Source: Branchiostoma floridae (lineage: Eukaryota; Chordata; Leptocardii; Amphioxiformes; Branchiostomatidae). Taken from it: a stretch of DNA of 64,000 nucleotides. Location of the stretch: the NCBI RefSeq assembly GCF_000003815.2, contig NC_049980.1, positions 2,580,566-2,644,565 of the forward strand. Reading direction: 5' to 3'. The position numbers and the translations under genes are program-made. The notes below the pieces were generated by a model that saw nothing but the letters and a program-made list of their open reading frames with translations, ran no database searches and was not told where the DNA came from. Positions 37,195 through 63,861 of this stretch are shown here, one piece after another. The first letter of the stretch is position 1. The number at the start of each line of letters is the position of its first letter.

Positions 37195-37721
37195 ATGAGT
37201 GCTACCGATAAGGCAGGCGGTGTGGATAAGGCAGACGTTGCTTCCGCCTCTGTTGTCACCGCGGCGTCGTTTACGTCGAGTGACGGCGACGACGAGGGTC
37301 TTGGGACGACGACGTATAGCGTCAGCACGTCGTCAGACGTGGAAAGCACGGCGAGCAGCTCCACCGTGACCGAGGTGCGACATAAGCGGTACGTGGTGAC
37401 CAGCTCCTCGGGACGACTGTCGAGCGTCCCCGCCGACCCAGGTCCCGAACCCCCCACCTTCCCCACCACCGACATCGTGTCGCTGAACGCCCGCTTCATG
37501 TACTACGTGGACCGCGTGCGTTTCCTGGAGCAGGAGAACCGTACCCTGCGCCACAGCGTGACGGAGCTGGAGGTCAGGTCTGTGTCCCCGGAGATGTACC
37601 GAACCTTCCAGCAGGAGATAGACAGGGGGCGGCAGAAGGTGGCGGACCTGGGCGCAGAGAGGGCGCATCTACAGGTGGAGGTACAGAGGCTGGAGAGGGA
37701 GATGCGCGAATTCAACCACAA
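37195..37721 (+). CDS. Exon 1: head, coil 1A and start of coil 1B of an intermediate filament
   Basis: The ATG has good context (gtcgccATGa) and in-frame stops lie just upstream. Residues 1-94 are a Ser/Thr/Val-rich head with no recognised domain. LNARFMYYVDRVRFLEQEN (97-115) is the classic coil 1A start motif of intermediate filaments (compare LNDRFASYIDKVRFLEQ in the family). About 42 further residues of heptad-like coil 1B end at EFNHK. This is the exact place where intron 1 falls in vertebrate type I-III genes. The donor is cacaa|gtgaga, leaving phase 2. Coil 1B up to this point is as short as in chordate cytoplasmic filaments, without the 42-residue insert of lamins and protostome filaments. 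Reading past the donor gives a stop at once. Confidence 0.9.
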
Positions 37722-40700: not shown

Positions 40701-43700
40701 GGGGTGGGATCCCTCCCCGGAACAGCCAGATTTCCCGCGAATGTCCTTATTTGTTGATCAACACAAAGGCTCTTACAACTGGTTGCGTCATTTCTTTTTC
40801 AGCGCGGAAAACAGAATCAATTCTTTCTGACATATTTCTAGAGCAAGACCGTCCGCGTTTCCAAATTTCCTGTTCTAAATTTGAAGCTCTTTGATTCGGC
40901 AATGTAAAATTCAAACCATCGTAAGTTTGTATGTAAAACCCGGGCATTTCCTTTCGGGGCCGGGGCTTTCGGGGGAGAAGCCTCGCCATGTGGCCCCGCC
41001 CACACCGTCGGCTTCCTTGTTACCAAGGCAGTGCACTTTTTCGCCCACTTCATCAAAGGCCGCCGCTGTTGGTTAGAGTTTCAAACAGCCGCGTGCCAGT
41101 TGACAGCGAACTTCATATGCTACGTGATTATTGCATTCCTTGGACTTCCCCACAGCGGTGCTTCTACAAAATATTTATTAGACTGTAACATTTATTCCCA
41201 CGTAACGTTACGTGTTTTATAGAATAGAATCTGACGCGGAACAGCGGTTTCGCCGGATATTTTCCTTGAAACAGGTCCGTTGGAATATCGTCTGACAGCG
41301 AGGCGGCGACGTAGGGATATAAGACCGTCAACAACAATCGCACGTCACGGCAGCGCAGCGAAGGTACTAGCGCTATAAAGAAGCGCTTCAGCTTCGGATG
41401 GCAAACTGGACGATAGTTATAAGTACTGTTGAGCTGAGTAAAGTTTGTTGTTTATGAGTTTTTAGTTGTCTTTGACTCTTTGACCCGAAATACTGCTATG
41501 TTAAACTGCTGAAAAGAAGTTAAGTGACTGCTACGATTATCGTAGATATGGCCCTAAAAACTGATAGAATAAGCCTTCTGATTAGCCTAAAATGCAAGAG
41601 CTTAAGGGGGGCTTCGTCTAAAGCAAGATGAAGTCATCATTTGACGGGCGGACACTTCCGTGTTGCGTAGCAGCGGTCGTTGACCTCGTTCGAACACCAT
41701 GTTCCATATCTCCCGGGCGGGTTCCATAGCTACCGGTCGTTGACCTCGGGTCCTTGGAACGTAGTTCCAAAGTTCTATTGGGGCTCGAAAGTTCGATTTT
41801 GTGTTAAAATTGCTAGTTTTTTCACCCTTTTTTGCCCCATAAAATCATTTTTTGGTATCTTTAGGGGACCAAATGACCAAGGTGCAGTGTCTTATGTGCA
41901 GACCTACCAGCTTGCTGAATTACGAGATATTCCAAGGTCTAGTTTCGGAGATATTCATGTTTTTTATTTGTGCGGAAAAGAAGAAGAAACAGAGCAAAAA
42001 CAGTATGTACCTTCTGTGAAGGTAACATAAATAGGTCTTGGCTACACAGTAAACGGACTCTACTCCACCCACCACCCCTCCATCCCTTAACAACATGGGT
42101 GGGTATCATTCTTTATCAATGAGTAGGCGTTAGCCGGTACAACGCGCCCAACAAATGTCACTGACACATGACCGGGGACAATTTTATCGTCTCCGGTTTC
42201 CGAGGCAATGCTTCACACGCATTTAACCGTCACTGTCTGTCTGCCATGGAATGGTTCAGCACTGTCAATATCAGGGGGAATGATGAAAGTTTTGTTTGAG
42301 CTCAGCTGGTTTGTTGTATGTATGTATAAGTGTGTTTGGGTCAGTTTGTTTGGGCTGTTTCAATACAGACTGTGTGTGTTAAGTCAATTGTTAAGGTACC
42401 CACGCATATTTGTGTGTACAACTTAAGTAACGCAGTAAATTTATGGCATTCTCCGGGCGGTCATTAAAGTGTCGTACAAAATTCGGCTGTCTTCCAACAG
42501 ATAAGATCTATGTCGTCAACATTGACTTCTGCTTTTAGCCTCGCAGAAGAATGAGAAAATAAAGTGGCCGTGACGACGCCTGACCATACCACAGTGACGC
42601 CATATCCGAGTGACGACATTTTTTCCGGTTTGTCTGTCGGCGAAAAATGAATGTTTGCCAGTCCCCCTTCCATGTTATGGTTATGAGGCTGCGTATACTC
42701 GTACAATGACAGTAAGCCAAGGTCACATTGTTGGCGCCATATTTGTTGCCGTTCTTTAGGGACGTACCATGTTATTGTGGGGGCGGAGTTAAGGCCTTTA
42801 GGCATTATAAGTAGACTAGCCCTTTTACCATGTTTACTTGCCACTTGTTCAACCACCACATTCAAACTTCTCACAAGAAACGTAAAAACTACAATAATTT
42901 CCCCTAATTCCAATCCCCACTAACCCCATTCCTATCATTCCTACATCAAAGAAAACATCAACTCCTTTTCGAGACCCCCATTTGGCCGAGTAAAATGTAG
43001 TAAATGTATTACGAAAGGCAATTAACTAGATAGCAATTTGCTAACTTGCTGTTTAGCACAGTAACAATAAAGAATCGTTCTGTTTCCCTGCTATACAAAC
43101 AGAAATAAAACTGTGATCAGCATATCTCACGAAATATCGTGTCAGCTGGATGGGAAAAAAAGAAGAATTGACCAAATAGGGACAAATAAGTTGCCATGGG
43201 ATTTCAGTCTTTTTTTTTTTTTAGTTTATCCAGCTATGCACCGGCCGGTAAGTTTGACTAGGCCAATTGACTCCTACTACTACTTTTATTCCTAACTTGG
43301 CCAAAGTAACCTATTACCATTAGGTCAGGCCGGAGTCTGGTAAAGACTGCCCATCTGTACAATGTACGTGATCAATGGATTCTACCGTTCTGATTGACAT
43401 GCACAGCACGTAGTTCAGACGTTGCGTGAGTATATGCCACCCCAAAGTGACTCCAATAATGTATCAATCAGTCATATCTGAACATCCTATATACTCTTAC
43501 AGCCTGGGACCGCCGCCAAACAAAACTGAACCACCTCAGGAACGCTTCCAAATGACACAAAAACTGATCNNNNNNNNNNNNNNNNNNNNNNNNNNNNNNN
43601 NNNNNNNNNNNNNNNNNNNNNNNNNNNNNNNNNNNNNNNNNNNNNNNNNNNNNNNNNNNNNNNNNNNNNCTATTTGGTTGATATCACTGTTTTTCCGTTC

Positions 43701-46700: not shown

Positions 46701-49700
46701 GAGGGACATGTTGCTGATGCGGAACTTTCTCCTCAGTGTGGCGTAGTTGCCATGGCGCAGAACTGTACATGTCCTCTAGCTGTGCAGTCTTTTGGAAGCA
46801 CGTTGTAGATTTGCCTGTTTAGAAACGTTATCATATATACTGGGTTAAAACACCGTGAAACCAAACATGACATGCTTGGATGTGTGAATAGAGTTTTCTC
46901 TGTGTCTGTTTGATATGTTTGATAAACAAAATTATCATATAGCCAGGGGACGTGGGCCAATCAGAAGGCCCCATTTCATGCTGGTTATGACGCCGTAACA
47001 GCCGTGCATTGAATTTTTGATTATCACATGTGTGATAAAACTTTTGAAAGTTTAAACCAATCAGGAGTACAGACAAACATGACGCTGGCCAATCAGAATG
47101 AGATATCCAGGAATCGTCCATCTGCCAAGATAGGGGAATAAGTACAGGCATGGCAGGGGGGATGGCTCCCTCTATTAACATCGGTAGTGCGTGTTTCTTT
47201 GTTCAAAGAAAACATTTGCTGTCTTAAAACAACATTGAATTACCTATAACATTTAAGACAATAAAATCTATTTCAAGTCATGTCCAATTTAAACTGCAAA
47301 TGGAAAATAAAATTATTTGCACCCCCGCCCATTCAAGTTCAGACGACAATAACACCACGGTCCGCCATTGAGTAGCGGTCATGGCGCTGGAGGACCAAAA
47401 TACTACCTTTCTTCGGAGAAGTCGTGTCTGGGTTCGTAGTGAATGAGATTCTCAAGAGCTGTGAAGCACAGGGATCCCGGAATACCTCAGGAAAGCCGGC
47501 AGAGATTTAGCGCCTGATACGAACGAACTCGACAAACTGGAGAATGGGCGAGTGGAGAAATACGGAGCGTGCAACAGTTTGTAACATAATGAATCGACTT
47601 TGTTCTTATTTTAAGTCTTGGAACAGAAATACATTTCACGTTCAAGTTTTATGTTGTTCAAATTCACTGTTCAAATGTATGTACTGAATAAAAGATGTAT
47701 GTTTTAGAAAAGAATTTGTCGCTCCCACTCAACTGGAAACTCTACTCTACTCTAATCTACTCTTAAATGGGTCAGTGTGGGTAGGCTATATGAAAAGAGG
47801 GTTAATGACTCACCCGCTCCTCGNNNNNNNNNNNNNNNNNNNNNNNNNNNNNNNNNNNNNNNNNNNNNNNNNNNNNNNNNNNNNNNNNNNNNNNNNNNNN
47901 NNNNNNNNNNNNNNNNNNNNNNNNNNNNNNNNNNNNNNNNNNNNNNNNNNNNNNNNNNNNNNNNNNNNNNNNNNNNNNNNNNNNNNNNNNNNNNNNNNNN
48001 NNNNNNNNNNNNNNNNNNNNNNNNNNNNNNNNNNNNNNNNNNNNNNNNNNNNNNNNNNNNNNNNNNNNNNNNNNNNNNNNNNNNNNNNNNNNNNNNNNNN
48101 NNNNNNNNNNNNNNNNNNNNNNNNNNNNNNNNNNNNNNNNNNNNNNNNNNNNNNNNNNNNNNNNNNNNNNNNNNNNNNNNNNNNNNNNNNNNNNNNNNNN
48201 NNNNNNNNNNNNNNNNNNNNNNNNNNNNNNNNNNNNNNNNNNNNNNNNNNNNNNNNNNNNNNNNNNNNNNNNNNNNNNNNNNNNNNNNNNNNNNNNNNNN
48301 NNNNNNNNNNNNNNNNNNNNNNNNNNNNNNNNNNNNNNNNNNNNNNNNNNNNNNNNNNNNNNNNNNNNNNNNNNNNNNNNNNNNNNNNNNNNNNNNNNNN
48401 NNNNNNNNNNNNNNNNNNNNNNNNNNNNNNNNNNNNNNNNNNNNNNNNNNNNNNNNNNNNNNNNNNNNNNNNNNNNNNNNNNNNNNNNNNNNNNNNNNNN
48501 NNNNNNNNNNNNNNNNNNNNNNNNNNNNNNNNNNNNNNNNNNNNNNNNNNNNNNNNNNNNNNNNNNNNNNNNNNNNNNNNNNNNNNNNNNNNNNNNNNNN
48601 NNNNNNNNTAATTGACGAAGGTCATACGAAGGTATGTCAGGTAAAGAACGAAACTTTAAGTGCATTCTTTGTAATCCCTCGGTGCAGAACGCGCTAGGGT
48701 CCCTGCCATGACTCTTCTTCCGTATTAAATATCCATCGATTGTTCACATTTGGGATGGAATAGCGACCAAAGGTCCTGTTTGCATTTTTATGTGCATTAT
48801 CTTTGTAGAAACGTCTAACGCCGCGCTAAACTGCGCGATCCTGTCGTGACTAACTCCCTCCCCTGGTTCACAGGAGCTGTACGACACCAAGAAGGCCTAC
48901 AAGGACGCCCAGGAGAACCTGCGACTTCGGGCGCAAGAACAGGACTTCAAGACACGCACACACGAACAGGTAAGAAAATGACTCAGTATGAAGACAGTTA
49001 GGATCGTTTTAACAAAACAAAACACCACGCGTAACGCCTTTGTCACATCGTCACATTGGCAACGACTTTCAACCGAAATTCTTGACCGCCAGAAATCCAC
49101 CGAATTTCAAATAGCGCCTTTTCCCAGAAAATCCACCTTGTTACATTATACCGAGCCCAGTGAACTGTTATCTCTAAATGTTATCTGATTCCTAGAATTA
49201 CACAGTGATCGGAAGGATGTGATTTACCAACTTGGTGGCTGTGAAACGTACAGTCCTACAGGCGATGCCATGTTGCTAGAAGACTGCTACTTTTGACAGG
49301 ATTTCGGAAGTTAATCCCGGACGGATCTCTCTTTGTCCAGATAAGACTTATCCCACTCAGCAGCTGTAGATGGTACACGGAGAAAAACACATCAATTGTC
49401 AAGCTTAATCGTTTGATTGTTCCCTGTCTTGTCTTGTCGTCCAGGAGGTGAAGGAGGTTCGGAAAGAGATCCTGAACATATCCGTGGAGCTGGAGAAACT
49501 GAGGAACGAGGTGAGTCGTCTTCGCTATCATTTTGTTTGTCGCAATCGGTAAGATGTTTGACCCAGGCTCCAGACGTAACAGGTTCAAAACCGCTGATGT
49601 GTCACCGATGCTGTGCCCTTAGGAAAGGCACTTGACAGGACTTTCCTCACTTCACTCAGGTGAAAATGATTACCTAGCTTTGGTTAGGGCCGACCCTCGG

Positions 49701-52700
49701 ATAAAACGTTAAATGGGGGTCCCGTGTTTGAGGAGAGCCACACCTCGAGCACGTTAAATATCCCACCACACTTATCGAAACGAGTAGGGGTCCTTCACAG
49801 TGTTAGTGGTTTAAAACCTACAGTCCCATGGCCGCATCTGGGACAATTACTGTCGTATTAAGGTCACCTGAGTGGCGCCGAATGGCAGCTCGCTCCAGAC
49901 CCTTGCGATGTAGCCGCGCCTATTGTAAGCTCCTCGCAATTCAGCCCCTGGTTGCCAAGAGAGAGTAGTCGGGCCATCCAAGAACAAAATTAACGTCATC
50001 TCTACCCAAAGCTTAAGGAACCTGCAGTGCAAGATTCATCATGACTTCAAAATCATCTTATAACGTCTTGCTGAAATGGAGACATGAAAGACTTTTTAAA
50101 AAATCACGAGCTGGCTCGTTGTATACTTCAGTTTGGGTTGTCGCCGCACCTTAAATGTCACGAGAATATACATGGGCAGTTTCTTGTTCTGTTATCGGAA
50201 TCTTTCTTAGTGAATGGGCCGTGAGAGTTATAAATGAGCCGTAGAGCAGACTATCCCATTCTCTACTGTCTGCCGCTGTACGCCGTTCTGTCGAAAGGTA
50301 AAACGACCATCCCCGCATTGACGTGTCACTGGACATACTTAATACAAAAAACAAAGTTAGTCAAACAACTGGATAATGTTTGCAAACTGTCAGACGTTTC
50401 AGACAACATCCGAAGTCTTTCGGCAGTAACACTGCTGCAACAAGCCGCTGACGGAAGATAGTGGATGCTGTCTGAAATGTCATACCGTTTTTAAAAATCA
50501 TCCAATAACTTTTGTATTACCCCATTGCCCGGATATCTAACCTTCATCAACGATAAAACGGCATGTTTTAGAGATTGATCTGACTGCAACTCGATTTCAG
50601 AACACAAAGGTTGCGATCGGCGTCCTGGGAGCACAGGGGGAGCTGCAGCAATACGTCACCGGGAACGAAGGGGTAGGAGCTGGTCGCCCCCCTCCCCATC
50701 ATGGCGGCACTGTGGTGTCTCAGGGGAACCATATCAGAATTTTCACCTCCTTAAGCATTACTAACCACATCCCTAGTCCCACTTTGGAAGAAATCACTTG
50801 CAAATGTTCACAGGGTGAGAGGTCCACAAGGTCAACACTAGTTGTTATGATTTATTCAGAGCATGATGACATAATTATTTCTGGGTCAACTATAATGAAC
50901 TTGCATCTTTAACCAAGGAGTTGGTGTAAATATAAGCATGTTTTTCCTGCCAGAATGCACAGCTGCAGTCAGAAGTTCATCAAGTTTCCCACAATGCCAG
51001 CACGGAAGTGACGCAGTACGTGTCGATGCTAGAAAAGAGGGAGGTCGAATTAGAGGTGAGGAAAACAATAAGGAATCGTGGTGCTACATAATCGTGGTAC
51101 TTCCATAAACTACATGCAACTAGTCTCCAAGCAGACCCTACGGCGCCTTAGAGATAATGGTGCCGCTATACTAAGTCCCTTGTCAGCTTTGATACTATTT
51201 CTAAGGTACCGTAGGGTCTGATTGGAGACTACATGCAACAGCTAACTGCTCCAATACTTATTAACACCTATTCCCAGACCTTTCCCATGTCCTTACGATT
51301 TGACATCTGTTCACATGTCTTAACCTACTGACACCTGTTCCCATGTCCTAACCTACTGACACCTTTTCCCATGTCATTATTCACTGACACATATTCCTAT
51401 AGCTATGTCCTTACCCACTGACACCTGTTCTCATGTCCTAACCCACTGACACCTGTTCTCATGTCCTAACCCACTGACACCTCTTCTCATGTCCTAACCC
51501 ACTGACACCTCTTCTCATGTCCTAACCCACTGACACCTCTTCTCATGTCCTAACCCACTGACACCTGTTCCCATGTCCTAACCCACTGACAGCTGTTCCC
51601 ATGTCCTAACCCACTGACACCTGTTCCCATGTCCTAACCCACTGACACCTTTTCTCATGTCCTAACCCACTGACACCTGTTCTCATGTCCTTACCCCATG
51701 ACATCTGTTCTCATGTCCTTACCCACTGACACCTTTTCTCATGTCCTTACCACTAACACCTGTTTCCGTGTCCGTATCCTTGAATAATGACACCTGCTCC
51801 TATGTCCTAACTGACACCTGTTCTTGTGTCCTCACCCATTGACACCTTATCCCGTGTCCTTACCCACTGACGTCTGTTCCAATATCCTTGAATACTGACA
51901 ACTGATCCTATACCTGGTTCCTATTTCTATAACCTTACCTGACACTTTCTCTCTTCTTGCCTTCTTGTCCTAATCAACAGAAACTTGTTGTCATGTCTCA
52001 CCTACTGACAACAAGTTTCCGTATCCTAACCCACTGACACCCGTTACCATGTCGTCCTTGCCTACAGGCACCTGATCCTATATCCTTGTCTACAGGCAAC
52101 TGTCTCCATGTCCTTTACTATTGACGCCTGTCCCAATGTCCTTGCCTATTGACACCACCTGTCCCCATGTCCTAGCCTATTGACACCTGTCCCCATGTCC
52201 TTGCCTATTGACACCTGTCCCCATGTCCTTGCCTATTGACACCTGTCCCCATGTCCTTGCCTATTGACACCTGTCCCCATGTCCTTGCCTATTGACACCT
52301 GTCCCCACGTCCTTGCCTATTGACACCTGTCCCCATGTCCTTGCCTATTGACACCTGTCCCCATGTCCTTGCCTATTGACACCTGTTCCCATGTCCTTGC
52401 CAATTGACACCTGTCCCTATGTCCTCGCCTATTGACACCTGTCCCCATGTCCTTGCCTATTGACACCTGTCCCCATGTCCTTGCCTATTGACACCTGTCC
52501 CCATGTCCTTGCCTATTGACACCTGTCCCCACGTCCTTGCCTATTGACACCTGTCCCCATGTCCTTGCCTATTGACACCTGTCCCTATGTCCTTGCTCAG
52601 ACCCTGCACCGCAGCCTGGAGCAACAGAGGGAGGAGTACGAGAAGCTCATGCACATGAAGCTAGACCTGGAGCTGGCACTGAAGCATCATGGACTGGAGT

Positions 52701-55700
52701 ACACCACCATACAATATGAGTGAGTTTTGCCCATCGCCTTTCTACCTTTCGTCTTTTAGGGAACAAAAAGCATCAGCCCCTTGTGGAAAGGTCTGAAACA
52801 GATGAACAGCATACTGCATACATTTCGCATTAAACATATCTTTGTTGGTAGGTATAGGTATAGGTTATAAATTCGAAATGAACACAAGAAATAGCAGCCT
52901 ATCAATGAGTGGGGTATATCGGCTGAAAGACCGTAGGCATGTCAGCAAATTATGTCAGCAGATAAGTTTGATAAAACTTCATTAATTCATCAAAGTGTTT
53001 TTGCCTTCCAGTGTGCACGACTGGTCTCCGTCCCACCGCAAATCATCTACTCCAAAGGGCACACCAATCCGTCGTCGCCCCCTCCATGAAATTAACCATT
53101 CCAACAAAAAGAGGAAAGCTGAGCACCCATCACCTGCAGATGGTTCATTCCTGACGGATGAGGCTGCTTATGTCTCTGCAGAAGGCTTCGCTACTGGTGA
53201 GGGGCGCGCTATGCAAACAAGCCACTCTGTCGCTAACGCCGCGGGGTTATCACAGGGTTTCGGAAATCAAGGGTTTCTACCACAGGGTTTTGAATTCCAG
53301 GCTAGTCCTACTGGTGCGGGTGTGAGCGTTAATGGTGTGGGCCATGCTGCTGTTGCTACTGCTTTTTCCCAGGGAATCGCGGCGCACGCTAGTCCGGCTG
53401 ATACCGATGTGTGTGTGCTCCATGCTACAAACACCCATGCGGGTTCTGCTACCGCTGCAGGTATATCCCAAGGTTTAAGAACCCAGGGTACTCTTGCTGG
53501 CTTGGGTGTGAGCGATAGTGGTTCAGAGACCTATGTGAGTTTTGCAAGCGCAGCTCCATCCCGAGCAGCTGGTGCCGGTCATGCTACGCAAACATATGCG
53601 GGTCATCCTGCCGCTAGTCCCGCACACCTACCACAGCTCCCTGATCCCCATACGGGTGCAAGTACGGGTCATGCTAGTTTCTCTGTGGCTGACAGCGTCA
53701 GCCTTCTTCCCTCCGCTCAGCCTGCTGGTTGCGCTGTCTCTCCGGCGTCTGTCATCCCTCCGGTTGCTGCAGTCGTGGCACCTGCTCTGGGTGGTCCAAA
53801 GCGTGTTCTGCTGTCCTCTGGGGAATATTCGGCTGTAGACTCGAGTACTTTTGGTACGAGCCCCGCTTATGACAGTATCAGTAGTACCCCTACTGTCACT
53901 AGTACACCTACTGTCACTAGTACTCCTGCTGTCACTAGTTCCACTGTAGTTACTAGTACCATTGCTGCCACTCGTTCCACTGTAGTCACTAGTTCCATTG
54001 CTGTCACAGGCTCCACTGTAATCACTAATATCCTTCCTGTCACTCGTTCCACTGTAGTCACTAGTACCCTTGCTGTCACTAGTCCCATCAAGGCCACTGT
54101 TTCTTCGCTTGCTGTTGGTAAAGTTGGTACTTTTGATCCATCCTTTTGTCTTACTCCAACGACTAGAAGTGGTGAAAGTACGTCTCTCTCTAGTGGCTGC
54201 AGGACTGTACCCGATACTGAAAGGCTAGAGGGATCTGAACTTGTTAGTCCGCAACGAGTGCTCCTGTCCTCTGACGAATTTGTGGTGGTGGACTCTACTA
54301 CTGAAACTAACACAGTCACTTTTCTCACCGGCAGTGCTGCTGGTACTCGTACTATCAGTGGAGTGACTCCTGGTGTTGCTGATACCGTTACCATTGGTGA
54401 AGGGACTGTATCTGTTGGTACCAGTACCACATGTGGAGTGGCTTCTGGTGCTAGTGGCACCAGTGCCAACGGTGGAATGACTCCTGTTGCTAGTGGCATC
54501 AGTACCACTGGTGGAGTTACTCCTGATACTAGTAGTACCAGCACCTCCGGTGGAGTTACAACTATTGCCGTTAGTGCTGTTACTAATGGTGAAGGGTCTC
54601 CTGGCACTGGTACCACTACTGCAGTTACTCCTATACATGTAGATACCAGAACTGGTACTGTCTGTGGTGTTATTCCAGTTAGTGCCAGTGCCGGCCACAC
54701 CATCGATTCCGTAACTCTCGTGGGAAAAGTGCGGGGTGTACCTTCGTCTGGCCTGTGTGGTCCGGAGCGCATAATTACCCCATCTGGAGAATATGTCTTG
54801 TCTTCTCCAGGTGGAAATATTGACGCTATCGACGGTGCCAGTACCACTATAGATTCCGCGAGGGGTATGGCCGATGCAACACGTGCGGCTGTGCCTGATA
54901 CTAACATGGGAACTGTCATTGCTAGCGGGGCTGCCTACAGATCCCGTGATGTGCTGCCCTCCCCCCACACCCATGATCATCCGCTTTCTGCTTCGGCTCT
55001 AAACGTCGCGCAGTCCACCAAAACCCCGCAAGGTGGCACTGTTGTATTTGGCTCTGCTACACCTGGGGGCAACACAGTTTATATTGGTGAGGGCTATGGT
55101 GCTGCGAACTTTCCAACTTTGTCTGGTGAGAACGTGGTGCCTGCGGAAGATACGGATGACAAAGGGGCTTCAACAACCAGCAGCCAAGTGCGATCGCTAG
55201 GGGGCGCAGTGGTAGAAGGGGGAGCTGCCGAGGATGAGTCCAGAATTGCAGCTGCTGCAACAGTGGACGGTGTAGGAATGCCGCAGGGCTTCAGTGGTGG
55301 TAAGCAGGGTACTTATGGTAAGATAGTAACAGGCTTGCTTGAATCACCGCAGGTTAGCGACGTGTCGCCTGGCGAAGCCCCAGAAGCTGCTGTTGAATGC
55401 ATGCTGACCAGATCATACGCGTCTAAAGTCACTGAGAAGAAACGTGAAATTACTGTACCCGATGACGCCCGAGCCTCTAGTGGTGGCCAAGCGGGTGTTA
55501 CAGACACGGAGCTTGCCGTTGAGTCATTCAGCAGTACATCTGCTGATGCGGTTAGCTATGTAGATGTAGACGGCAACGTAAGCGCAGCTTTTGTAAGCAC
55601 TACGGATGAGGCAGGTGAAAGTTGGAACCCTTTGGTGTCATTAGAAAGTGCTTATTATCAGGGCGTTACCTTGACAAGTGCTGCCCAAGCGGCCACTGCG

Positions 55701-58700
55701 TGTGTCCATCTCGCCGCTGTGGCTAAAGCTGGAGTAAGTAGCTTCATTGTCAGGTCCGATGACGACAACTCGGACGACAGTATGCCTGGTGGCTACGTAC
55801 CCACAAAGATGAACGGTGATACAAAGAACAGACACATGAAGGAAACTACCCCAGCAGCACCATTCCCTACGTCGTCGTTGGGCGTAACAGCGACTTTACC
55901 AGAGATTTTCCCCGGGGTACCACACAGTCCACACTTCGAAGCTACGTCAACCGACGTCAATGAGACCGCATTTGTCATACCGAGCACATCCCGAACTGTT
56001 GGCGGTAAATTGTGCGGTTTTGCCGCCGGTGTCCTTGATGACGATGCAGATGAAAACAATGAGCGAGCAGAGAACAGATTTCCTGATTCAAGCATTCGGT
56101 GCGTCATTTTCCCTGAATCATCATCGCCTGAAAGTGAAGCCATATCCATCGGTAACTCTGACAGTCAGATAATCTGGCAAATGCATTTGTTGCACGGTGG
56201 CATATCAGCTTTTAGGCTTCGGGAAACAATAGCTTACATCGACCAGTTTCCGCAAAATTCTCCTGTAATTCGCATTCAACTCTTTGTCATGGTAAGCAAG
56301 GCTTTAGTTTGATAAATGCAAATTAAAGGTGCCAGTACGAATGGAGTAAGAAGTTCTGTGGGGAGGTACTGCAAGAGAACACATGATAAACTCTGCGTAT
56401 CTTAATTGTTCATATGGTGAAAAAGTAGATTGCAAGCTACCTTTTATTTGCTGTGCCGCTGAGTGTGCGAGTGTCAGCTACATTTTGGTTACATTTTAGT
56501 AAGCTAAGCCATATCTAGGCTCGCTGACTCCAGCCTTGTCAAGGAATGATCAATCCACCGCTTGTGATATAATGTTGCCAACACAGATACAATCAATTAT
56601 ATATTACGATATATTTCACATATAGATAGAAGATGAATCTATAGGAACTGTTGCAAAAATTTGTCTTTTCTACATTCTCGCAGAATCTGGAAGCCAGTCA
56701 GGGTACATCATCACCGAGAGTTACACCATCGATGGAAGCGCGTCACAACAGCGGACACAGCGCGATGAAACGAATGGAACAGCAGGAGGTGTTGGCGATG
56801 GTCAGCTGGTGATAGGTGAAGCTCGAGCCGTTGATGCTCCTGGGCTTTCCGGCCCGAGACGAGTCATGACAGCTTCCGGGGAGTATGTGGTGGCGTCCGC
56901 AACATCCACGGTCCGTTGTAGCGGAGAGGAAGGCGACACGGCCATGGGGCTGACATCAGAAGGCCAGATGGCGACTACGAGGGCCACAGCTGACGATCGC
57001 CCCGGTCTCTCAGGCCCGAAACGCATCCTTACCGCCTCAGGAGAGTATGTCATCGCAACATCCTCGGAAGAGCAGACAACAACTACGACGGCCACAGCTG
57101 AGGACCGGCCCGGGCTCTCAGGTCCGAAACGCATCCTTACCGCCTCAGGAGACTATGTCATCGCAACATCCTCGGAAGAGCAGACAACAACTACGACCGC
57201 CACAGCTGAGGATCGACCCGGGCTCTCTGGTCCGAAACGCATCCTTACCGCCTCAGGAGAGTATGTCATCGCAACATCCTCGGAAGATCAGACAACAACT
57301 ACGACGGTCCAGTCTGAAGATCGACCCTGTCCTTCAGGTCCGAAACGTATCCTTACTGCTTCAGGAGAGAATGTCGTAGTGACATCTTCGGAAGATCAGA
57401 CGAAGACTACAACAGTCAAAGCCGAGGACCGCTCTAGTCTTTCCGGTCCGAGACACGCCTTGACGTCCACAAGGGAGTATGTTGTAATGACTTCGTCTTC
57501 GGATGAGCAAACAACAACTACAACGGCCACACCTGAGGATCGACCCGGTCTCTCAGGCCCTAAACGCATCCTTACCGCCTCAGGAGAGTATGTCATCGCA
57601 ACATCCTCGGAAGAGCAAACAACTACGACGGCCAGAACCGAGGACCGACCCGGTCTCTCAGGTCCGAAACGCGTCCTTACACCTTCAGGAGAGTATGTTG
57701 TAACATATTCGGAAGACCAGACGACGACGACCGTCCAGGTTGAAGATCACCCCGGTCTCTCCGGCCCGAAACGCGTCCTGACGGCTTCTGGGGAGTACGT
57801 CGTAGTAACTTCGTCTGAACACCGTACAGCATCTACAACCAAAGACGGCGTGAGCACTGAACAAGTGAAACGAGGGTCTAATGCTCGTGATGGTGGGATA
57901 GGAAGCTATCTTGGGACTGATGTTGTCGACGCCACCAAATCGACGTCGGGCGGCTACGTCGTTGAGTCGTCAACAAAAGAAGGGGTGTACGAGGGTCATG
58001 GGAAGGCGCAGAAGTATTCAGCTGACGTTATGGAGACGACAACAACAAAACGCCGATCGAAAGGAGGCATCGGCCACTCAGAAGGCCCACCGATATCCTA
58101 CAGTTTACACCAGGAAACCCAAACGGTAAGTCAAACTGTTACTTTCTTATGGTGTACTGTGCTTTAGTAACGTGCTGTGTTCTGGATTGTCCCGATCGGT
58201 ATGCTTGAGATTGTCACCGGGTGCATGTGATGGTAAAGGGAACCCTCTGACGTAGCCGTGGCATGTCCATTTTGGTTTGTTTTGGTTTTGTTTGGTTTGG
58301 TTTAGAAAGAGGACCGTTCCTGCAAAGCGGCGACAGCAGTGATGCCTGTGCAATGGTGCAACGTAGTAGCGGTAATACCCCTGTCTCATTTGTCGAAATC
58401 GATTGGGCGACGATTCTGCAGCAATCGCCCGAGCCTCGCTTATGTAACTATAACTTTATTGCACAAAAATTGTACAAGGTACAAAGTATGGCTTATATGT
58501 AACAAAGACCGTTTTCAGTTGAAAAGTACGCGCAACCCTCTGTCGATCTTAGATATGGTCGATCTTTCATCCATACGCACGGAGATCGTGGATAATGTGA
58601 CAGGGGTATAACCGTCATTCTTACTCTCCCGTCGCAGAGGAAAACTCTGGAGAAAGCTGATTTTGAGGAGGGAAGTGTGCCTTCCCGAGAAATCGTACAG

Positions 58701-61700
58701 GACAGAACAGCGGATTCACTGTCGTTTTCTGGGGACACGCACATGATGAGTGTACGAATGTGGGGAAAATTTCCCACCAAGCGAAGACAGATGGTAACAT
58801 TGTCCTTTTTACAGTTCAGCTGGTGAGCTGGTGGAATGGGTTCTCGACGTGAGATGATATTTTTGATGGTGGCACATGGACATGGGGCCGGTGGTTGTCT
58901 GCATCTCATATCGTTAGTGAAGTCATCGCACAATTTAATGTAGTAGTGTTTTGCGATATAGAGACCTATATACACTGTGGTTACACTATTTTTCCTTATG
59001 CTGTTTCACAGTACGATGGTGATAGCAAGTTTGACCGGGTGATAGGGAGAAAGGGGGTGAACAAACCTGCGTATAGATATCTACAAAATGCGACCTGTGC
59101 TGTATTTAACAGACCGCGGAAAAATTACTAAAAATTAAAAGTGAACATTTTATTTGTATTACAAGAACACCAGTGATAAGATTGTATCAGCGACTTCGTC
59201 AATGGAGTCGAGCGAAACACAGACTTCAAGCACCATCACCAGAATACCGGAATCCAGTGTCAGTGTTTCCACATCCGACTCTACCTCTTCCGGTCCCACC
59301 ACGAGCCCTTCCGGACCCGGTCTCAGCCCTTCCGGATCCAATGCTTCACTACAAACCCTGACAGAGTCCGACAATACTTTGCTGAATTCCCAGATGGCGG
59401 TGCATTTCTGGGGGCGACGTGCTAACAGAAAAAGTTTACCATCGGTAAATGGATTGTGCAATGGTTGGCATGGCATTTTGCGGTGTATGTACAGGTCGGA
59501 AGCTTAAGGAAAATCGGTTCCTCTTGTCCAATAGCCGCTATGATACGAACGATGCCTAAGTTGTTTTACTTGCTGGATTCCAGGTTTTGTGCTCGGAGTT
59601 GCAGGGGCGAATGTCTTCCACCGATCCTAGGAAGAGTATGGTACGAATGCATGAATGCGAGCAGGGTAACACGTCATGCAACCACCGCATTCAGAGTTGG
59701 ACAGAGCGAGGCCTACCAGTACCATAGATATAATTCTATCGACATCGTGTGACAAACTGCACGAAAGTAAAGTGCACTGGTTCCAGTGTCCAAACACGAA
59801 ACCTGCAACATTTGATTTTGTTCCTTTAATAATCATTTCAATTCACCTTCAGGGAACACCGACCTTGTCGGAGTTGAAGGCAGACCGATTTGGAGGGCCG
59901 TTTGCTGGAGACAGATTCACAAGTGACCCCATCACAACCATTACTTCAACCTCTACCTCAACAGAACGCACACGTACCAGCGACGGTGGTGCAACACATC
60001 CTGTCACTGCCACCAGTACCTTCTCAACAACCAATAGAGCAGAGGTGCTACACAAATACTGACTAAACACTTTCTAATGCTACTGTCACTTCAACTTCAG
60101 TAGTCATCCTTCTATTAGTCCCCACCAGGAGAAACGTAGAGGTGCCACATTGCTTGGGACTTGACAGCGCATTTTTGCGGCTTATGTGCCTCTCATTACA
60201 TTGGTGCGTCTTCTGGTATAAATTCGTGGTTCCGTGGAAAGATAGTGGTTGCAAATAGCTGTTTCTGGGGATTTTCTATCCTTTTCCTCTCCAATGCTTG
60301 ACCAATGCCTTTTTCGACGGAATTGTTGTTTTCAGGTTCAAGATATGTCGGAAGCGTCTGCAGAAAAATCCGGTTGGGGGCGCTTTTTCGGGCGGCAGTC
60401 AAGAGTTATCCGATCTATCCAGCACCGCACGCCGTCACACCACGCGTCCGGGTTTCGGCAACTGGAATCTAACTTCTGGGGCAAATCCGTCAGACGGGAG
60501 AATACGCGGACGGTGAACCTGTTTTGTTTTCCCTTCGGGTTCATTGGTGCCGCCATGTTGGTTTTAGACGTCACGGGTCGGCAATCTTGTTTGAACTTCT
60601 CATACACATACTTTCCGCGTATCCCACTATTTCGCTAGTACACGTACGGTCTAGGGCTACACATTTGTGAAACCTGGCCTTGCTTTGCTGTGTTGGGATG
60701 TAGATTTTAGTCTGCAATTTCCACACCGTTTCTTAAGGTGGTGATGGTTTCAACATTGCCTTGATAAATCTCCTTGGGAGTTCCTGGTGAGGCGAATATG
60801 GTACACAATTGGGCAGCACTGGCTGTGTGTCCCGCGCAAACCAATAGATAAATAAATCCGTAGGAATAAATAAATGAATCCGTACTAACATTCTTCAGTG
60901 TCATCTAACACAAAACATTACCTTCAGCAGAACCCGGCCAGTGCTACTGATCTCATAGGCAGGAGCTGGTGGAGTCGTCTGCTGGGTGTGCCCAGCGTTG
61001 CCGCCGTCTCCTCTGTTGACTCAATACAAGGCGTGGTAGGCATCGAATTCGGTTTACCCAGTTGCATAATACTGGTCGATTCTTGTTCGTTAACCGCTGC
61101 TTTGTGGTGCTAGATAGCTTTTCGGTGAATAGAGATGCGAAAGGCAGCAGAACAGCAGCAAGACGAAGGGGAATATGATCTTCTGTGAGTTTGTTAATCG
61201 TGAAACTACGTCATGCCAGTTACGCGGAGGAAGTCCAACTTTCTTACGTACCGTAAGTGTCAATCGCGGTTTCCCGGGTGTAGAGGTCTGTAGATGCCAT
61301 CTCAGATGTGCTGGGAGTAGCTGTCTGTGTTTTGCCTTGATTTCTGCAGTAGCTAAGCCCCGTGCTTGGGTATTTGAAAGTTCTGTAACACATGTGATCA
61401 CAGATTGTATGCATTTCATACATCGTATATAAGTATTTTCAACATGGTCAAATGTAACGTTACATGCTGCTATTTTTCATTCGTTCGTTATTTTTATGCC
61501 TTCTTTTATGTCATATCGTCTTGCAGTATCAACGATTGTACTATTGATGTACACTTATCAGACTAATTTGATTCACAGAATGATCATTTCAAGTTGGTGA
61601 AGCGATGGTGACGTCAACTTGACGATACAGCGTTGTCTTGACTAAAAGTGCATTATTTTGAGATGTTTGAGACGAAATTGTTGTTTTCAGGATCAGGATG

Positions 61701-62820
61701 ACATGGATGCCTCTTCTGCAAAATCTGGCTGGTGGCGCTTTTTAACACGACAATCGACAACGTCAACTACAAGACATTCCTCCCAGGCCATACAACGTGA
61801 GCTGACGTCAACTGGCTCGTCAGGAATGACGCAACTAGGGTCCAACTCTTGGGGCAAATCCACCAGGCGAGAAAACACGGGGATGGTAATTTGTTTGGGA
61901 AGCTCTGATTTGACCGCTTTTCTCCTATCGCTTTTTTGAACCTACAGACCTACAGAGCCATGGCATGAATTCCTCTAAGCAATGCGCTATACATGCGTTT
62001 TTTGTCGCTTGTGCTGCTTGTAGGTTGCTTTAATGATCACAGCACCTTATACTCCTGTGCGTTTAGTGAAAGCGCAGAGAAGTGTTTTTTCCGCTTAATG
62101 ACTGTCGCATGTTCCACTACTCGCAGGACTTCTCTTGGCAGGTTGGCAAGCATGCTGCAACATAGTGTGCTGTGGCACCGCCATGGAATTTCCACGTTAT
62201 TTTCTCTCTTCACCATTTGTCTACTAGCGCTTTTAAGGCAAATTATCAATGTAAAATTTAATTGCTTGTGGCTTTTCTGACAGCGTGGGGTTGACGAGAC
62301 CGACACAACAGCCGTTTCTGCTACACATACGACTGTTACTACTACTGGAAGGTAAGTCTTCTCACGTTGTACAACGAATATAAGTAAGTAAATAAGTGCA
62401 CAAATTGATTTAACGAAACGGAAATTGATTACCATTCACAGAGAACTCTTGTACATGATTCAAATGTTTTCTGTTTTTGTAATTTAAAAGAACTGTTTAT
62501 GAACGACCATTCTTTCGTTATTCATCTTCAGTGACGGTGCTAGTGGCAGTAAAAAAACCAGGAGGACTGGTGCCCGGCAACTCGTCGATGGAAGCGATAA
62601 GACCTCTCGGACCTGCCTCTCGCGGATTGGCCGCTTGTGTGTCTGGCTACTCCCGCTGCTTTTCCTCCTCCTCCTACTTTTCTTCCTCCTGTCCTCCCTG
62701 TTCCCGGGTGGGATGCTGGGGATGCTCCTGGGCTGGGAGAGAGGCAGCTGCCACTTGCAGAACAGCTTCCGCCAGTCCTGGCGGTTCATGCTTAGGCACA
62801 GGAGCCCCCCTCCCATCTGA
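37195..62820 (+). CDS. Intermediate-filament protein with C-terminal KASH domain (gene model, 16 visible exons plus one unseen)
   Basis: Proposed join: 37195-37721, [unseen exon, predicted 61 nt], 48874-48969, 49445-49510, 50601-50672, 50954-51055, 52601-52719, 53012-56151, 56684-58125, 58638-58793, 59166-59444, 59853-60044, 60336-60512, 60928-61035, 61691-61885, 62284-62351, 62532-62820. All introns start GT and end AG, and phases agree at every visible junction. With a 61-nt second exon the frame is 7,089 nt, about 2,362 residues. Order of parts: head (1-94), coil 1A (about 95-130), rod to about 348, long Ser/Thr/Gly tail with GPKR repeats, Trp-Gly-basic motif exons, transmembrane helix, KASH peptide ending PPPI. 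Known: intermediate-filament rods form coiled-coil dimers, and KASH peptides bind SUN proteins in the perinuclear space. Inferred: a filament or filament-like tether fixed to the outer nuclear membrane, with the bulk cytoplasmic. There is no lamin Ig fold and no CaaX end. The main doubt is whether one transcript spans all exons. Confidence 0.75.
40368..40883. repeat. Direct duplication of about 250 bp in the first intron region
   Basis: Copy 1 (40368-40627) and copy 2 (40640-40883) both run from ccttgcgttcg to cctgttctaaattt. They share ggtgggatccctccccggaa and ctggttgcgtcatttcttttt-like blocks. Copy 2 has short deletions. Confidence 0.8.
43570..43669. other. Assembly gap (100 N)
   Basis: Exactly 100 N, probably a gap of unknown true size. 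Confidence 0.99.
44692..45229 (+). mobile_element. TIR-bounded element carrying a broken coding region
   Basis: Terminal inverted repeats TAGTCTCTACCAGACTCCGG and inverse; flanks ggtttgagg and agtttgagg (8 of 9 match). Inside, from about 44727, one open frame reads GDIIFSGNPEECSQPAANAL, then WTSTDLDGVLFQGDALY and DDIPDYLQL. This pattern (GDxxFS...CxxNALxA...WTxxDLDxIL.xGDxLY) is one I associate with uncharacterised, transposon-linked proteins of many animals, but I cannot name the domain. A 100-N gap interrupts it at 45078-45177. Most likely a non-autonomous element that captured or kept part of a longer ORF. Confidence 0.5.
45078..45177. other. Assembly gap (100 N)
   Basis: Exactly 100 N inside the TIR-bounded element. 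Confidence 0.99.
45347..46034. mobile_element. Non-autonomous PIF/Harbinger-like element, copy 2
   Basis: Same family and orientation as the element at 29.8 kb, with about 180 bp less in the middle. Termini are GGCCATATTGATTTGATTA and its complement. Flanking TTA on both sides (45344-45346, 46035-46037) is the canonical Harbinger target. It lies in the long first intron region of the intermediate-filament/KASH gene. Confidence 0.87.
46048..46193. mobile_element. Foldback element with TTACG-repeat arms
   Basis: Arms CAAGAGAGTCCAT...GGGTCATCTGTACGC then a run of CGTTA units, and the inverse on the right. It begins 13 bp after the end of the Harbinger-like element. The target duplication is not clear. 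Confidence 0.7.
47824..48608. other. Assembly gap (785 N)
   Basis: It lies 265 bp before the 96-nt coil 1B exon and is the most likely place for the missing second exon of the intermediate-filament/KASH gene. Confidence 0.99.
48874..48969 (+). CDS. Coil 1B exon, 96 nt (equivalent to vertebrate intermediate-filament exon 3)
   Basis: Acceptor ttcacag and donor gtaaga enclose 32 codons in phase 0, beginning ELYDTKKAYKDAQENL and ending in THEQ. Exon 3 of vimentin-type genes is also 96 nt and ends near FLKKLHEEE; here the end reads DFKTRTHEQ. Length, phase and the HE motif together identify it as coil 1B. The preceding exon must end in phase 0, while exon 1 ends in phase 2, so an exon between them is not visible. 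Confidence 0.85.
49445..49510 (+). CDS. Rod exon, 66 nt
   Basis: Acceptor cgtccag, donor gtgagt, 22 codons, phase 0 both sides. The peptide EVKEVRKEILNISVELEK is helical and charged. It follows THEQ just as the I/V-x-E-L start of vertebrate exon 4 follows its HEEE. It probably covers the end of coil 1B. The exon is far shorter than the 162-nt vertebrate exon 4. Confidence 0.8.
49560..49990 (+). mobile_element. SINE-like repeat in the intron between rod exons
   Basis: It shares the GGAAAGGCACTT...GACTTTCCTC block with the SINE at 22.75 kb and continues with a body containing AGGGCCGACCCTCGGATA and GAGCCACACC. A clear tRNA head and target duplication are not visible, so the limits are approximate. 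Confidence 0.5.
50335..50560. repeat. Foldback repeat in the intron between 66- and 72-nt rod exons
   Basis: Imperfect inverted arms: AACTGGATAATGTTTGCAAA with GACGTTTCAGACAACATCC on the left and their diverged complements on the right. The outer part (ggatatctaaccttcatcaacg, inverse) matches the repeat copies at 10.3 and 13.0 kb. Confidence 0.55.
50601..50672 (+). CDS. Rod exon, 72 nt (linker or coil 2 region)
   Basis: Acceptor tcgatttcag, donor gtagga, 24 codons, phase 0. The peptide starts NTKVAIGVLGAQGELQQY and ends GNEG. The glycines suggest a linker (L12-like) rather than a continuous coil. Family identity rests on position and phase, not on a motif. Confidence 0.7.
50954..51055 (+). 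CDS. Coil 2 exon, 102 nt
   Basis: Acceptor ttcctgccag, donor gtgagg, 34 codons in phase 0, with NAQLQSEVHQVSHNASTEV then SMLEKREVELE. The heptad-like spacing and acidic end fit intermediate-filament coil 2. Confidence 0.78.
51121..51231. mobile_element. MITE with TAGTCTCC termini in a rod intron
   Basis: Inverted arms of about 31 bp (TAGTCTCCAAGCAGACCCTA and inverse). Perfect 8-bp duplication catgcaac (51113-51120 and 51232-51239). It lies 65 bp after the donor of the 102-nt coil 2 exon. Confidence 0.85.
51261..52595. repeat. Intronic minisatellite, 28-bp unit, about 47 copies
   Basis: Unit cctattgacacctgtcccca+tgtccttg in the distal half; the proximal half uses acccactgacacctgttctcatgtccta-type units. 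It fills the intron before the last rod exon and runs straight into its acceptor. The pyrimidine-rich units provide the branch and polypyrimidine region. Confidence 0.93.
52601..52719 (+). CDS. Last rod exon with diverged helix-termination region
   Basis: Acceptor ccttgctcag, donor gtgagt, 39 codons plus 2 nt. EEYEKLMHMKLDLELAL matches the family pattern EYQxLLxxKxxLxxEI near the end of coil 2B. Where the family then has a near-invariant TYRKLLEGEE, this protein has KHHGLEYTTIQYE, so the helix-termination motif is largely lost. The polypyrimidine tract is supplied by the last unit of the 28-bp minisatellite that fills the intron before it. Confidence 0.82.
53012..56151 (+). CDS. Giant tail exon 1 (3.14 kb)
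   Basis: Acceptor ttgccttccag; it completes the split codon from the rod exon and continues VHDWSPSHRKSS. A basic patch (RRRPLHEIN, then KKRKAEHP) follows, possibly a nuclear-localisation-like or filament-binding patch. Next come loose repeats around SQGF, QGF and SQGI, a Thr/Val array with a repeating STVVTS unit (about 53880-54100), a Gly/Thr array with a GVTP unit (about 54350-54600), and three copies of the GPKR-type motif (about 53786-53850, 54240-54290, 54750-54800). I end the exon at atcg|gtaact (56151) because this gives phase 1 and joins in frame to the next exon (g+aa). The frame stays open to 56312 but changes in composition there. No enzymatic domain is visible. Confidence 0.78.
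56684..58125 (+). CDS. Giant tail exon 2 with nine GPKR/SGEYV repeats
   Basis: Acceptor attctcgcag, donor gtaagt. In the frame set by the previous exon it reads SGSQSGYIITESYTIDG. It then holds nine tandem repeats of about 36 residues, consensus GLSGPKRILTASGEYV followed by SSEEQTTTT and an EDRP link. The end is a less repetitive region (VDATKSTSGGYVV, KRRSKGGIGHSEGP). The repeat motif is also in the preceding exon, which ties the two together. The region is probably disordered, rich in Thr and Ser and so a likely phosphorylation or glycosylation substrate (inference). I know no named domain for the repeat. Confidence 0.82.
56836..57810 (+). repeat. Nine coding tandem repeats of about 108 bp
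   Basis: The unit encodes about 36 residues with GPKRILTASGEYV at its core. Copies 2 to 4 and 7 are nearly identical at the nucleotide level; copies 5 and 6 are diverged (GENVVV, TSTREYVV). The reading frame is kept through all nine, and the number of units is likely to vary among alleles. Confidence 0.9.
58638..58793 (+). CDS. Tail exon, 156 nt, with first Trp-Gly-basic motif
   Basis: Acceptor cgtcgcag, donor gtaaca (weak), 52 codons, phase 0. It begins RKTLEKADFEEG and ends RMWGKFPTKRRQM. The WGK-basic end resembles the ends of the exons at 59166, 60336 and 61691. Confidence 0.65.
59166..59444 (+). CDS. Tail exon, 279 nt, Ser/Pro-rich with FWGRRANRK end
   Basis: Acceptor gtattacaag, donor gtaaat, 93 codons, phase 0. 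It contains repeated PSGPGLSPSG-like stretches, then HFWGRRANRKSLPS at the end. The Ser/Thr composition continues the preceding tail. Confidence 0.72.
59853..60044 (+). CDS. Tail exon, 192 nt, Thr/Ser-rich
   Basis: Acceptor caccttcag, donor gtgcta (weak), 64 codons, phase 0: GTPTLSELKADRFGGPF and then a Thr/Ser-rich run ending NRAE. If the donor were not used, the frame would stop 15 nt later, so this could also be an alternative last exon. Confidence 0.62.
60336..60512 (+). CDS. Tail exon, 177 nt, duplicated W-motif exon (copy A)
   Basis: Acceptor gttgttttcag, donor gtgaac, 59 codons, phase 0. It contains SAEKSGWGRFFGRQS and, 29 residues later, NFWGKSVRRENT. The exon at 61691-61885 has the same two blocks in the same order, and the last bases of both upstream introns match (attgttgttttcag), so the pair arose by exon duplication. 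Confidence 0.78.
60928..61035 (+). CDS. Tail exon, 108 nt, half-copy of the W-motif exon
   Basis: Acceptor taccttcag (a NAGNAG site, so the first Gln may be optional), donor gtaggc, 36 codons, phase 0. SATDLIGRSWWSRLLGVPS resembles the first block of the neighbouring duplicated exons (KSGWWRFLTRQS); the second block is absent. Confidence 0.65.
61691..61885 (+). CDS. Tail exon, 195 nt, duplicated W-motif exon (copy B)
   Basis: Acceptor gttgttttcag, donor gtaatt, 65 codons, phase 0. SSAKSGWWRFLTRQS and NSWGKSTRRENTGM are the two blocks shared with the exon at 60336-60512. The linker between them differs and is Ser/Thr-rich. Confidence 0.78.
62284..62351 (+). CDS. Short Thr-rich exon before the KASH exon
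   Basis: Acceptor ttttctgacag, donor gtaagt, 22 codons plus 2 nt (RGVDETDTTAVSATHTT and on). It ends with 'ag', and the KASH exon supplies 't' to complete a Ser codon, so the phase match is exact. Confidence 0.7.
62532..62820 (+). CDS. Terminal exon encoding the KASH domain
   Basis: Acceptor catcttcag, stop TGA at 62818-62820. It encodes 95 residues after the split Ser codon. A basic cytosolic stretch (KKTRRTGARQ) leads to a 23-residue hydrophobic helix (62635-62703), then 38 residues ending PPPI. This is the layout of a tail-anchored KASH protein of the outer nuclear membrane. Confidence 0.88.
62605..62817 (+). other. KASH domain (transmembrane helix plus SUN-binding peptide)
   Basis: The helix is LCVWLLPLLFLLLLLFFLL and onwards. 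The luminal part contains CHLQNSFRQSWRFMLR, which aligns without gaps to CTQANNFARSFYPMLR of vertebrate nesprin-1/2 as I recall it: Cys, Asn, Phe, Ser, an aromatic and MLR are shared. The Cys corresponds to the one that forms the disulfide with SUN proteins. The end is PPPI against PPPT, with one residue fewer between MLR and PPP. In the family the prolines and the free C-terminus sit in the SUN pocket. I judged this from sequence only. Confidence 0.87.
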
Positions 62821-63861
62821 TCACGTGATGATCACATGGTCCTCACGTGTCTATATCCTGATCACGTGGAGACCACATGGCCGCCACATGCTTACATTTT
62901 GATATTAAATGTCAAAAGCAGTTGGTAATCATGAAAATGGTATAGGCCAGATATCTTGTAACAGCTACAAATTTAATGTTCTTGAGCTTAGCTTGTCCTG
63001 TATTTGTGTGCGTTCACACTGCGAATAAGATAAGAATGGGACATTTTAGCTAAGCGTATGTACCAATACATCTCAGGTCTAGATTGCGACCTGCACTTCC
63101 ATGTCTAGAGATTAAAAGACATGTTGTTCATGCATTGGATCGTACATGTTCTGTTGGTCGATGGGGCAATACCAGCAATCTTTGTGTTCCCTATCATTAT
63201 AATCATCTGTTTACAGTTGTCTCTTGATGATGAGAGTTCTCCGATATTATTTTTCAATTAAAGGTGGAGGTGAATGTATTTGAAAGGGAATGAGATCATT
63301 CTATGCAATACTTTCGTAGGGTCTTCCAAAAATTGTGTAAAATGTAACTTTGCTTAATGCAAAATGCACAAACATTGGATATAGGTAAACTAGCTATAAT
63401 TCTTAAATATATAGATTATGCTTATATATTTGCATATATTAACATGTGGCCTTTACAATTGACATTTGGACCAAATTGCTATGTGAGGTGCAGTGGTCAT
63501 TGGTGGAATAACGTGTTTAAGGAGTGGTAGTATTTATTACATTTGTATGAGTAAGAAATGTATTTTCCTCGTCCTCGGCTCATTCTCTACTTGACATGTT
63601 TGAGAAGCGCCTTGCGATTTTGTGTGTACGTACAAACGCACATGAAGCTTTTCGTTGTGTTTTGATGTATCATCGAAAGAAAATTGACCGTACTGGATCA
63701 GATCTTTGAACGGACGTATAGCTGTAGGGAGAGCATGGTTGTGATTATTGTTCATGTACGTAGCTTGATATTGGTGCCTCTTCTATTGGTGCAATATTTA
63801 CTTGTTTTCGGTCGAACAGACGATGCATTCTGGTGGCCTAAAAGTGGATTTTATTTTGGTG

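Follow-up and report, generated by a model that had tools for sequence, protein, structure and literature searches.

An intermediate-filament rod and a KASH anchor in one amphioxus gene: a likely tether of the outer nuclear membrane in Branchiostoma

To our knowledge, the known links between cytoplasmic intermediate filaments (IFs) and the nucleus run via separate linkers; nesprin-3 and plectin are reportedly the subject of a 2005 paper. Regarding the nuclear side, KASH proteins are described as having cytoplasmic N-termini and a short C-terminal segment that binds SUN proteins and typically ends in PPPX (PMC5371868), and nesprin-3 is stated to anchor IFs to the nucleus (PMC9035595). On the filament side, filensin (BFSP1) is described as a long-tailed protein that lacks 29 residues of coil 2, has changed initiation and termination motifs and forms filaments with phakinin (PMC10626283).

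The locus discussed here, a + strand gene at 37195-62820 of the window (the whole stretch of 64,000 nucleotides of Branchiostoma floridae DNA that was analysed), brings the two sides together: an IF head and rod is followed by a tail that is long and rich in Ser and Thr, then by a single transmembrane helix and, at the C-terminus, a KASH peptide ending in PPPI. We consider it likely that this is one gene and that its product would be a tail-anchored KASH protein, its cytoplasmic part made of the IF head and rod and of a long, mostly disordered, splice-variable tail, acting as an IF-derived tether of the outer nuclear membrane. Judged by its sequence, what is new in this KASH protein is its cytoplasmic module; a full-text literature search on IF-KASH proteins and amphioxus KASH, which left most subscription papers outside, gave none describing such a protein among the matches listed.

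Exon structure of the gene

The first gene model was obtained by chaining exons by splice signals and phase, before any annotation was consulted. The final set of 16 window exons, with inner boundaries that are all GT/AG, rebuilds the public B. floridae protein P0001 letter for letter except for residues 176-196, and in this respect the agreement of splice phases noted in a preliminary description of this DNA is borne out. Compared with P0001, the annotation-blind model was without exon 2, carried the long form of exon 7 and missed the exon at 58638-58793; it also contained an extra 57-bp exon at 59584-59640, which is not in P0001 and was dropped.

Exon 1 (37195-37721) contains the ATG, a Ser/Thr-rich head, coil 1A and the start of coil 1B, ends in phase 2 and corresponds to P0001 residues 1-175. 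It matches the IF rod profile PF00038 with E=2.4e-15 and 57.4 bits (cut-off 40), and with E=1.8e-13 in the whole-assembly search, which confirms the coil 1A motif LNARFMYYVDRVRFLEQEN first noted by eye. Exon 2 is deduced: 61 bp, with the two dangling bases of exon 1, would encode the 21 residues 176-196, a peptide not found in the six frames of the window. The exon order places it between exons 1 and 3. This interval holds every one of the window's 985 N, in three runs, so that exon 2 must fall in an assembly gap; according to the N-run scan its likeliest site is the 785-N run at 47824-48608, the alternatives being the 100-N runs at 43570 and 45078. The sole open candidate of 58-67 bp in the sequenced part, 47616-47676, lacked a coiled-coil look and was rejected. 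Since P0001 holds residues that cannot be read in the window DNA, transcript evidence probably entered the public model, at least for its exon-2 part.

The remaining rod exons all match P0001 and have GT/AG boundaries: exon 3 (48874-48969, 96 bp) encodes part of coil 1B, exon 4 (49445-49510, 66 bp; missing in P0005) the end of coil 1B and the linker, exon 5 (50601-50672, 72 bp; missing in P0002, P0004 and P0005) is an optional rod exon, and exons 6a (50954-51055, 102 bp) and 6b (52601-52719, 119 bp; together 221 bp) encode coil 2 and its end, the latter without TYRKLLEGEE and with a weak alignment to vimentin 337-398 (9.2 bits). The intron before this last rod exon holds a long tandem array at about 51300-52590, with a unit that by eye measures about 28 bp in the later part.

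As for the tail, exon 7 has two forms: the short one (53012-53196) starts the tail and ends at the exact P0001 boundary, and the long one (53012-56151) is an open Ser/Thr-rich exon whose 3' end is a chosen weak donor (score 1.2), with the B. lanceolatum protein P0003 showing a long tail at the corresponding place. All exons that follow match P0001: exon 8 (56684-58125), made of repeats of the DRPGLSGPKRVLTASGEYVVVTSSEEQTTTTT type, exon 8b (58638-58793), exon 9 (59166-59444), exon 11 (59853-60044), exon 12 (60336-60512), with a basic/aromatic motif SGWGRFFGRQS ... NFWGKSVRRENT, exon 13 (60931-61035), exon 14 (61691-61885), which resembles exon 12 (SGWWRFLTRQS ... NSWGKSTRRENT), and exon 15 (62284-62351), which ends in phase 2 with a strong donor. 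Reading through the donor at 58793 adds 10 residues before a stop. Exon 16 (62532-62820) encodes the membrane-proximal segment, the transmembrane helix and the KASH peptide ending in SCHLQNSFRQSWRFMLRHRSPPPI, and is closed by TGA; 84 bases past this stop, the hexamer scan located a candidate polyadenylation signal, ATTAAA, at 62904-62909.

A divergent intermediate-filament rod

The whole proteins scanned (four of four) match PF00038 with 63.5-93.3 bits (cut-off 40). At coil 1A, LNAR stands in for the helix-initiation motif LNDR, one substitution away, in all eight proteins retrieved by the searches described in the last section. At the other end, YRKLLEGE, from the helix-termination motif TYRKLLEGEE, occurs in none of the eight, LALKHHGLEYTTIQYD or a close variant standing at that place. 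The region past coil 1B is short and so is coil 2, whose end is degenerate; vimentin 257-336 is without a confident counterpart. In the AlphaFold2 model of P0006 (7 sequences), which had a mean pLDDT of only 40.8 and a best ten-residue rod block of 90, the rod region 92-313 consists of helices at 92-128, 132-179 and 184-313; mostly disorder and low-confidence strands come next, and a helix at 1053-1082 lies at the membrane anchor.

These features bear on what the rod may do. With coil 2 short and the termination motif lost, a co-assembling or capping partner is likelier than an independent filament former, and the rod probably needs an IF partner instead of polymerising alone. Thus, the wording "filament protein" used initially holds for the rod as recognised by profile and is to be narrowed for polymerisation, since lone assembly is unlikely with the termination motif and part of coil 2 missing. 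The same gaps, together with the predicted helix ending where the termination motif would be, could instead indicate a tail-anchored protein of the ER or outer membrane in which the rod is a mere oligomerising coiled coil with no filament contact. We regard this alternative as improbable: the exon-1 part of the rod is 91-92% identical across species, higher than one would expect a generic coiled coil to require, and filensin, with its short coil 2 and altered motifs, is still reported to co-polymerise with phakinin (PMC10626283), the closest parallel known, from which co-assembly is to be expected for the amphioxus rod as well. Filensin resembles the amphioxus protein in having both a short coil 2 and a long tail; it differs in that the available text of PMC10626283 names no transmembrane or KASH domain for it, its tail binding the membrane protein aquaporin 0 instead.

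The relation of the rod to other IF proteins was followed through exon sizes. The series of 61, 96, 126 and 221 bp occurs in two of the six other amphioxus IF loci scanned, L018 and L022, and at the thresholds used the others gave 96 and 126 bp (L016), 61 bp (L017), an unsplit 157 bp with 221 bp (L020) or none (L025). The rod exon sizes had been described as vertebrate-like; the exons of 61, 96 and 102+119=221 bp have their match in L018 and L022, and the 126-bp exon has no counterpart in the present gene. L018 and L022 differ further in ending with YRKLLEGEE and in having no KASH match nearby. Matches to IF exons also crowd both strands of C2:27683859-27852203, a large IF expansion of amphioxus on the chromosome that carries the present gene.

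Directly C-terminal to the rod, in the exon at 53012-53196 (P0001 368-383), lies a basic motif, RRR...KKRK, whose KKRK part is found in 8/8 proteins. Its position after the rod is presumably that of the lamin nuclear localisation signal. A conserved KKRK would fit a nuclear protein and is unexplained in one that is expected in the cytoplasm; with the IF rod, which here too would lie at the nuclear envelope, it gives the protein a likeness to lamins and is a point in favour of a lamin-like role at the inner membrane. Exon 1 speaks for this role as well, being about equally similar to L025, lamin-like by eye (30/83 identical, score 114), and to other IF exons, the best of which is that of L018 (score 119); as a classifier this similarity was discarded, as it did not separate a lamin from a cytoplasmic IF origin. 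Still, we find a lamin-like role unlikely, and several differences weigh against it: coil 1A-1B can be aligned to vimentin (8rve, 39.1 bits) for 150 residues and to lamin A/C for no more than roughly the first 91-107; the 61-bp and 96-bp exons match those of two of the six other IF loci scanned; the Pfam scan found no lamin-tail domain at E<=0.01 in four of four proteins, and there is no CaaX end; finally, the lamin-like gene and its surroundings, about 19.7 kb, contain a single KKRK, which lies upstream of the coil 1A exon. Used as a query, P0001 residues 1-409 retrieved nothing at E<=0.001, other IFs included, among 7999 candidates scored.

The KASH end and its anchor

Exon 16 matches the KASH profile PF10541 with 31.4 bits (cut-off 23), aligned to the last profile position, and has a hydropathy of 2.71, in full accord with the transmembrane helix and PPPI-ending peptide proposed for it at the outset. 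In the whole proteins the profile scores 26.7-28.0 bits (4/4 scanned), and in all six fused proteins, those carrying both domains, the top hydropathy window (2.71-2.76) is just N-terminal to the KASH peptide; the next peak is 0.54-0.90 in five of them and 1.78 in P0003. The C-terminus is PPPI in seven of the eight proteins, P0008 ending otherwise, and the ends are PPPI or QTVI.

The nearest solved relative of this end is the KASH of nesprin-3 (6wme, E=0.0033, ungapped), with nesprin-1 next (E=0.087 and 0.2). The Cys and PPP of nesprin-3 are kept, and so is the length of the stretch between them; the cysteine aligns with that at -23, described as a feature of KASH1-4 (PMC10719071), one residue nearer the C-terminus, as in nesprin-3. 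At the place of the KASH1/2 proline -11 (position from PMC10719071) there is a Phe. The nesprin-3 length of the Cys-PPP segment and this Phe suggest that the peptide is likely to bind in the KASH3-5 mode, without a kink. The Tyr at -7 matters for binding without defining the family, and its mutation reportedly disrupts the SUN-KASH interaction (PMC10719071). It is not kept; a His aligns there, which weighs against the proposed reading, although the second clear amphioxus KASH, L010, has a His at this place too. As for the receptor, the same genome has a SUN-domain gene at C13:1493907-1494696, and C8 carries a second, partial match; a partner cysteine for the KASH disulfide was not found in the examined piece of the amphioxus SUN protein.

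Searching the whole assembly (513 Mb) with the KASH profile gave three matches, of which 62532-62820 is the weakest (E=1.0e-4); the other two are on C1, at 18618373 (70.9 bits) and 2907971 (L010, 67.4-67.6 bits). With only three matches in 513 Mb, chance alone is unlikely to have put a KASH exon on the same strand about 25 kb 3' of an IF exon. The gene at C1:18618373 shares the KASH domain, is closest to nesprin-1 in the PDB, and differs in having a weak spectrin-repeat match nearby (19 bits, below the cut-off of 29.9); for both C1 genes, no Filament match was present on C1 among the matches listed. The KASH exon of L010 (C1:2907971-2908141) ends in NGPSPT and not in PPPX. Given that the genome search with this profile returned no further KASH exon, amphioxus may have no separate nesprin-3, within the sensitivity of the KASH profile.

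Relatives, linker and proposed tether

A protein search with the chained model covered about 5.8 billion proteins; scoring was confined to the 7997 candidates with the most words in common. At E<=0.001 it returned five proteins, all from Branchiostoma and all (5/5) with PF00038 and PF10541 in one chain; repeating it with the alignment of these five, again with 7997 candidates scored, gave eight proteins, all from Branchiostoma, six with both domains. The absence of relatives outside this genus is bounded by sensitivity, length range and the number of candidates scored. The sources are B. floridae (P0001), B. lanceolatum (P0003, P0008), B. belcheri (P0005, P0007) and two hybrid assemblies, floridae x japonicum (P0002) and floridae x belcheri (P0004). 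P0007 has the KASH peptide at its end, in a model that skips the transmembrane helix, and P0008, isoform X2, stops before the KASH exons, past a stretch related to 58638-58793.

The end of P0008 could be taken to mean that two adjacent genes, one for an IF and a separate one for a KASH protein, were mistakenly chained by gene predictors; consistent with this, between exons 8b and 16 the window has an ATTAAA (59134) and more than one AATAAA (60851-60869). Such a mistake is very improbable in our estimate. Both domains occur together in six of eight proteins on at least five different contigs, P0006 splices exon 8 straight onto exon 14 and so shows another route to the KASH end, phases agree throughout the gene, and the scarcity of KASH matches in the assembly makes a chance neighbour unlikely. 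A single gene with the IF rod at one end and the KASH anchor at the other is therefore supported by public models, which are automated, from B. floridae, B. belcheri, B. lanceolatum and the two hybrid assemblies, and the rod-tail-KASH order that was to be looked for in other amphioxus is present there. The public names of these proteins are serine-rich adhesin for platelets-like, mucin-19-like, GFAP, hypothetical and uncharacterized; the architecture had been hidden behind the first three, and this is now corrected.

Regarding conservation, no region of P0002 falls below 97% identity with P0001 (97-100%). Comparing P0001 with P0003, P0004 and P0005, identity in the rod is 91-92% for exon 1, 90-96% for exons 2-3 and 92-95% for exons 6a-6b, the optional exons 4-5 having 78-91% (P0005 being without them); at the other end the transmembrane helix reaches 96-100% and the lumenal KASH segment 92-95%. 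The values are lower in the head (79-82%), the repeats (68-74%), exon 14 (69-74%) and just before the membrane (59-63%), and fall to 27-30% in exons 8b-13, partly because different exons were aligned there. Both ends are conserved and part of the middle is free, the pattern expected of a tether.

From the rod end to the membrane there are 739-2151 residues in the six fused proteins, a length that would make this linker a flexible tether of variable extent. Repeats of the GPKRVLTASGEYVV type occur in 56684-58125 and in parts of 53012-56151, with a copy number that differs among the public proteins. The tail exons at 60336-60512 and 61691-61885 have the same 15 bases upstream (aattgttgttttcag) and a common W/F/R-rich motif; exons 12 and 14 are apparently a tandem exon duplication near the membrane, and their motif is possibly a membrane-binding segment.

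In the mechanism proposed for the single-gene protein, the C-terminal helix would insert into the outer nuclear membrane and the lumenal KASH peptide would dock on SUN trimers, while the rod would pair with other cytoplasmic IF proteins; filaments that incorporate it would then be fixed to the nuclear envelope directly, without plectin and nesprin-3, and the KASH-less splice form could serve as a soluble counterpart. Whether amphioxus indeed has such a self-anchoring IF subunit, a one-molecule IF-to-SUN tether with a linker tunable by splicing and a soluble KASH-less form, directly doing the job of vertebrate plectin and nesprin-3, we regard as evenly balanced. With nesprin-3 (SYNE3) and plectin it shares the C-terminal KASH, the Cys-PPP spacing and the presumed task of joining IFs to the nucleus, and it differs in carrying the IF rod in the same chain. 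The initial view that the filament protein is itself the nesprin keeps its functional part, since the protein may work like nesprin-3 plus plectin, and loses the name: no spectrin repeat (PF00435) was detected at E<=0.01 in four of four proteins scanned, so that it is not a nesprin by definition.

If this is true, lamin lipid anchors and linker proteins would be joined by a third means of fixing IFs at the nuclear envelope. Having both ends in one conserved chain would permit a direct test of how IF tension reaches SUN proteins, and it opens the question of the origin of the vertebrate nesprin-3/plectin link.

Elsewhere in the window, the - strand holds an exon of a leucine-rich-repeat protein at 25419-26546, where an LRRNT match (25.0 bits) is just under its cut-off of 25.8 and LRR_8 reaches 165.8 bits.
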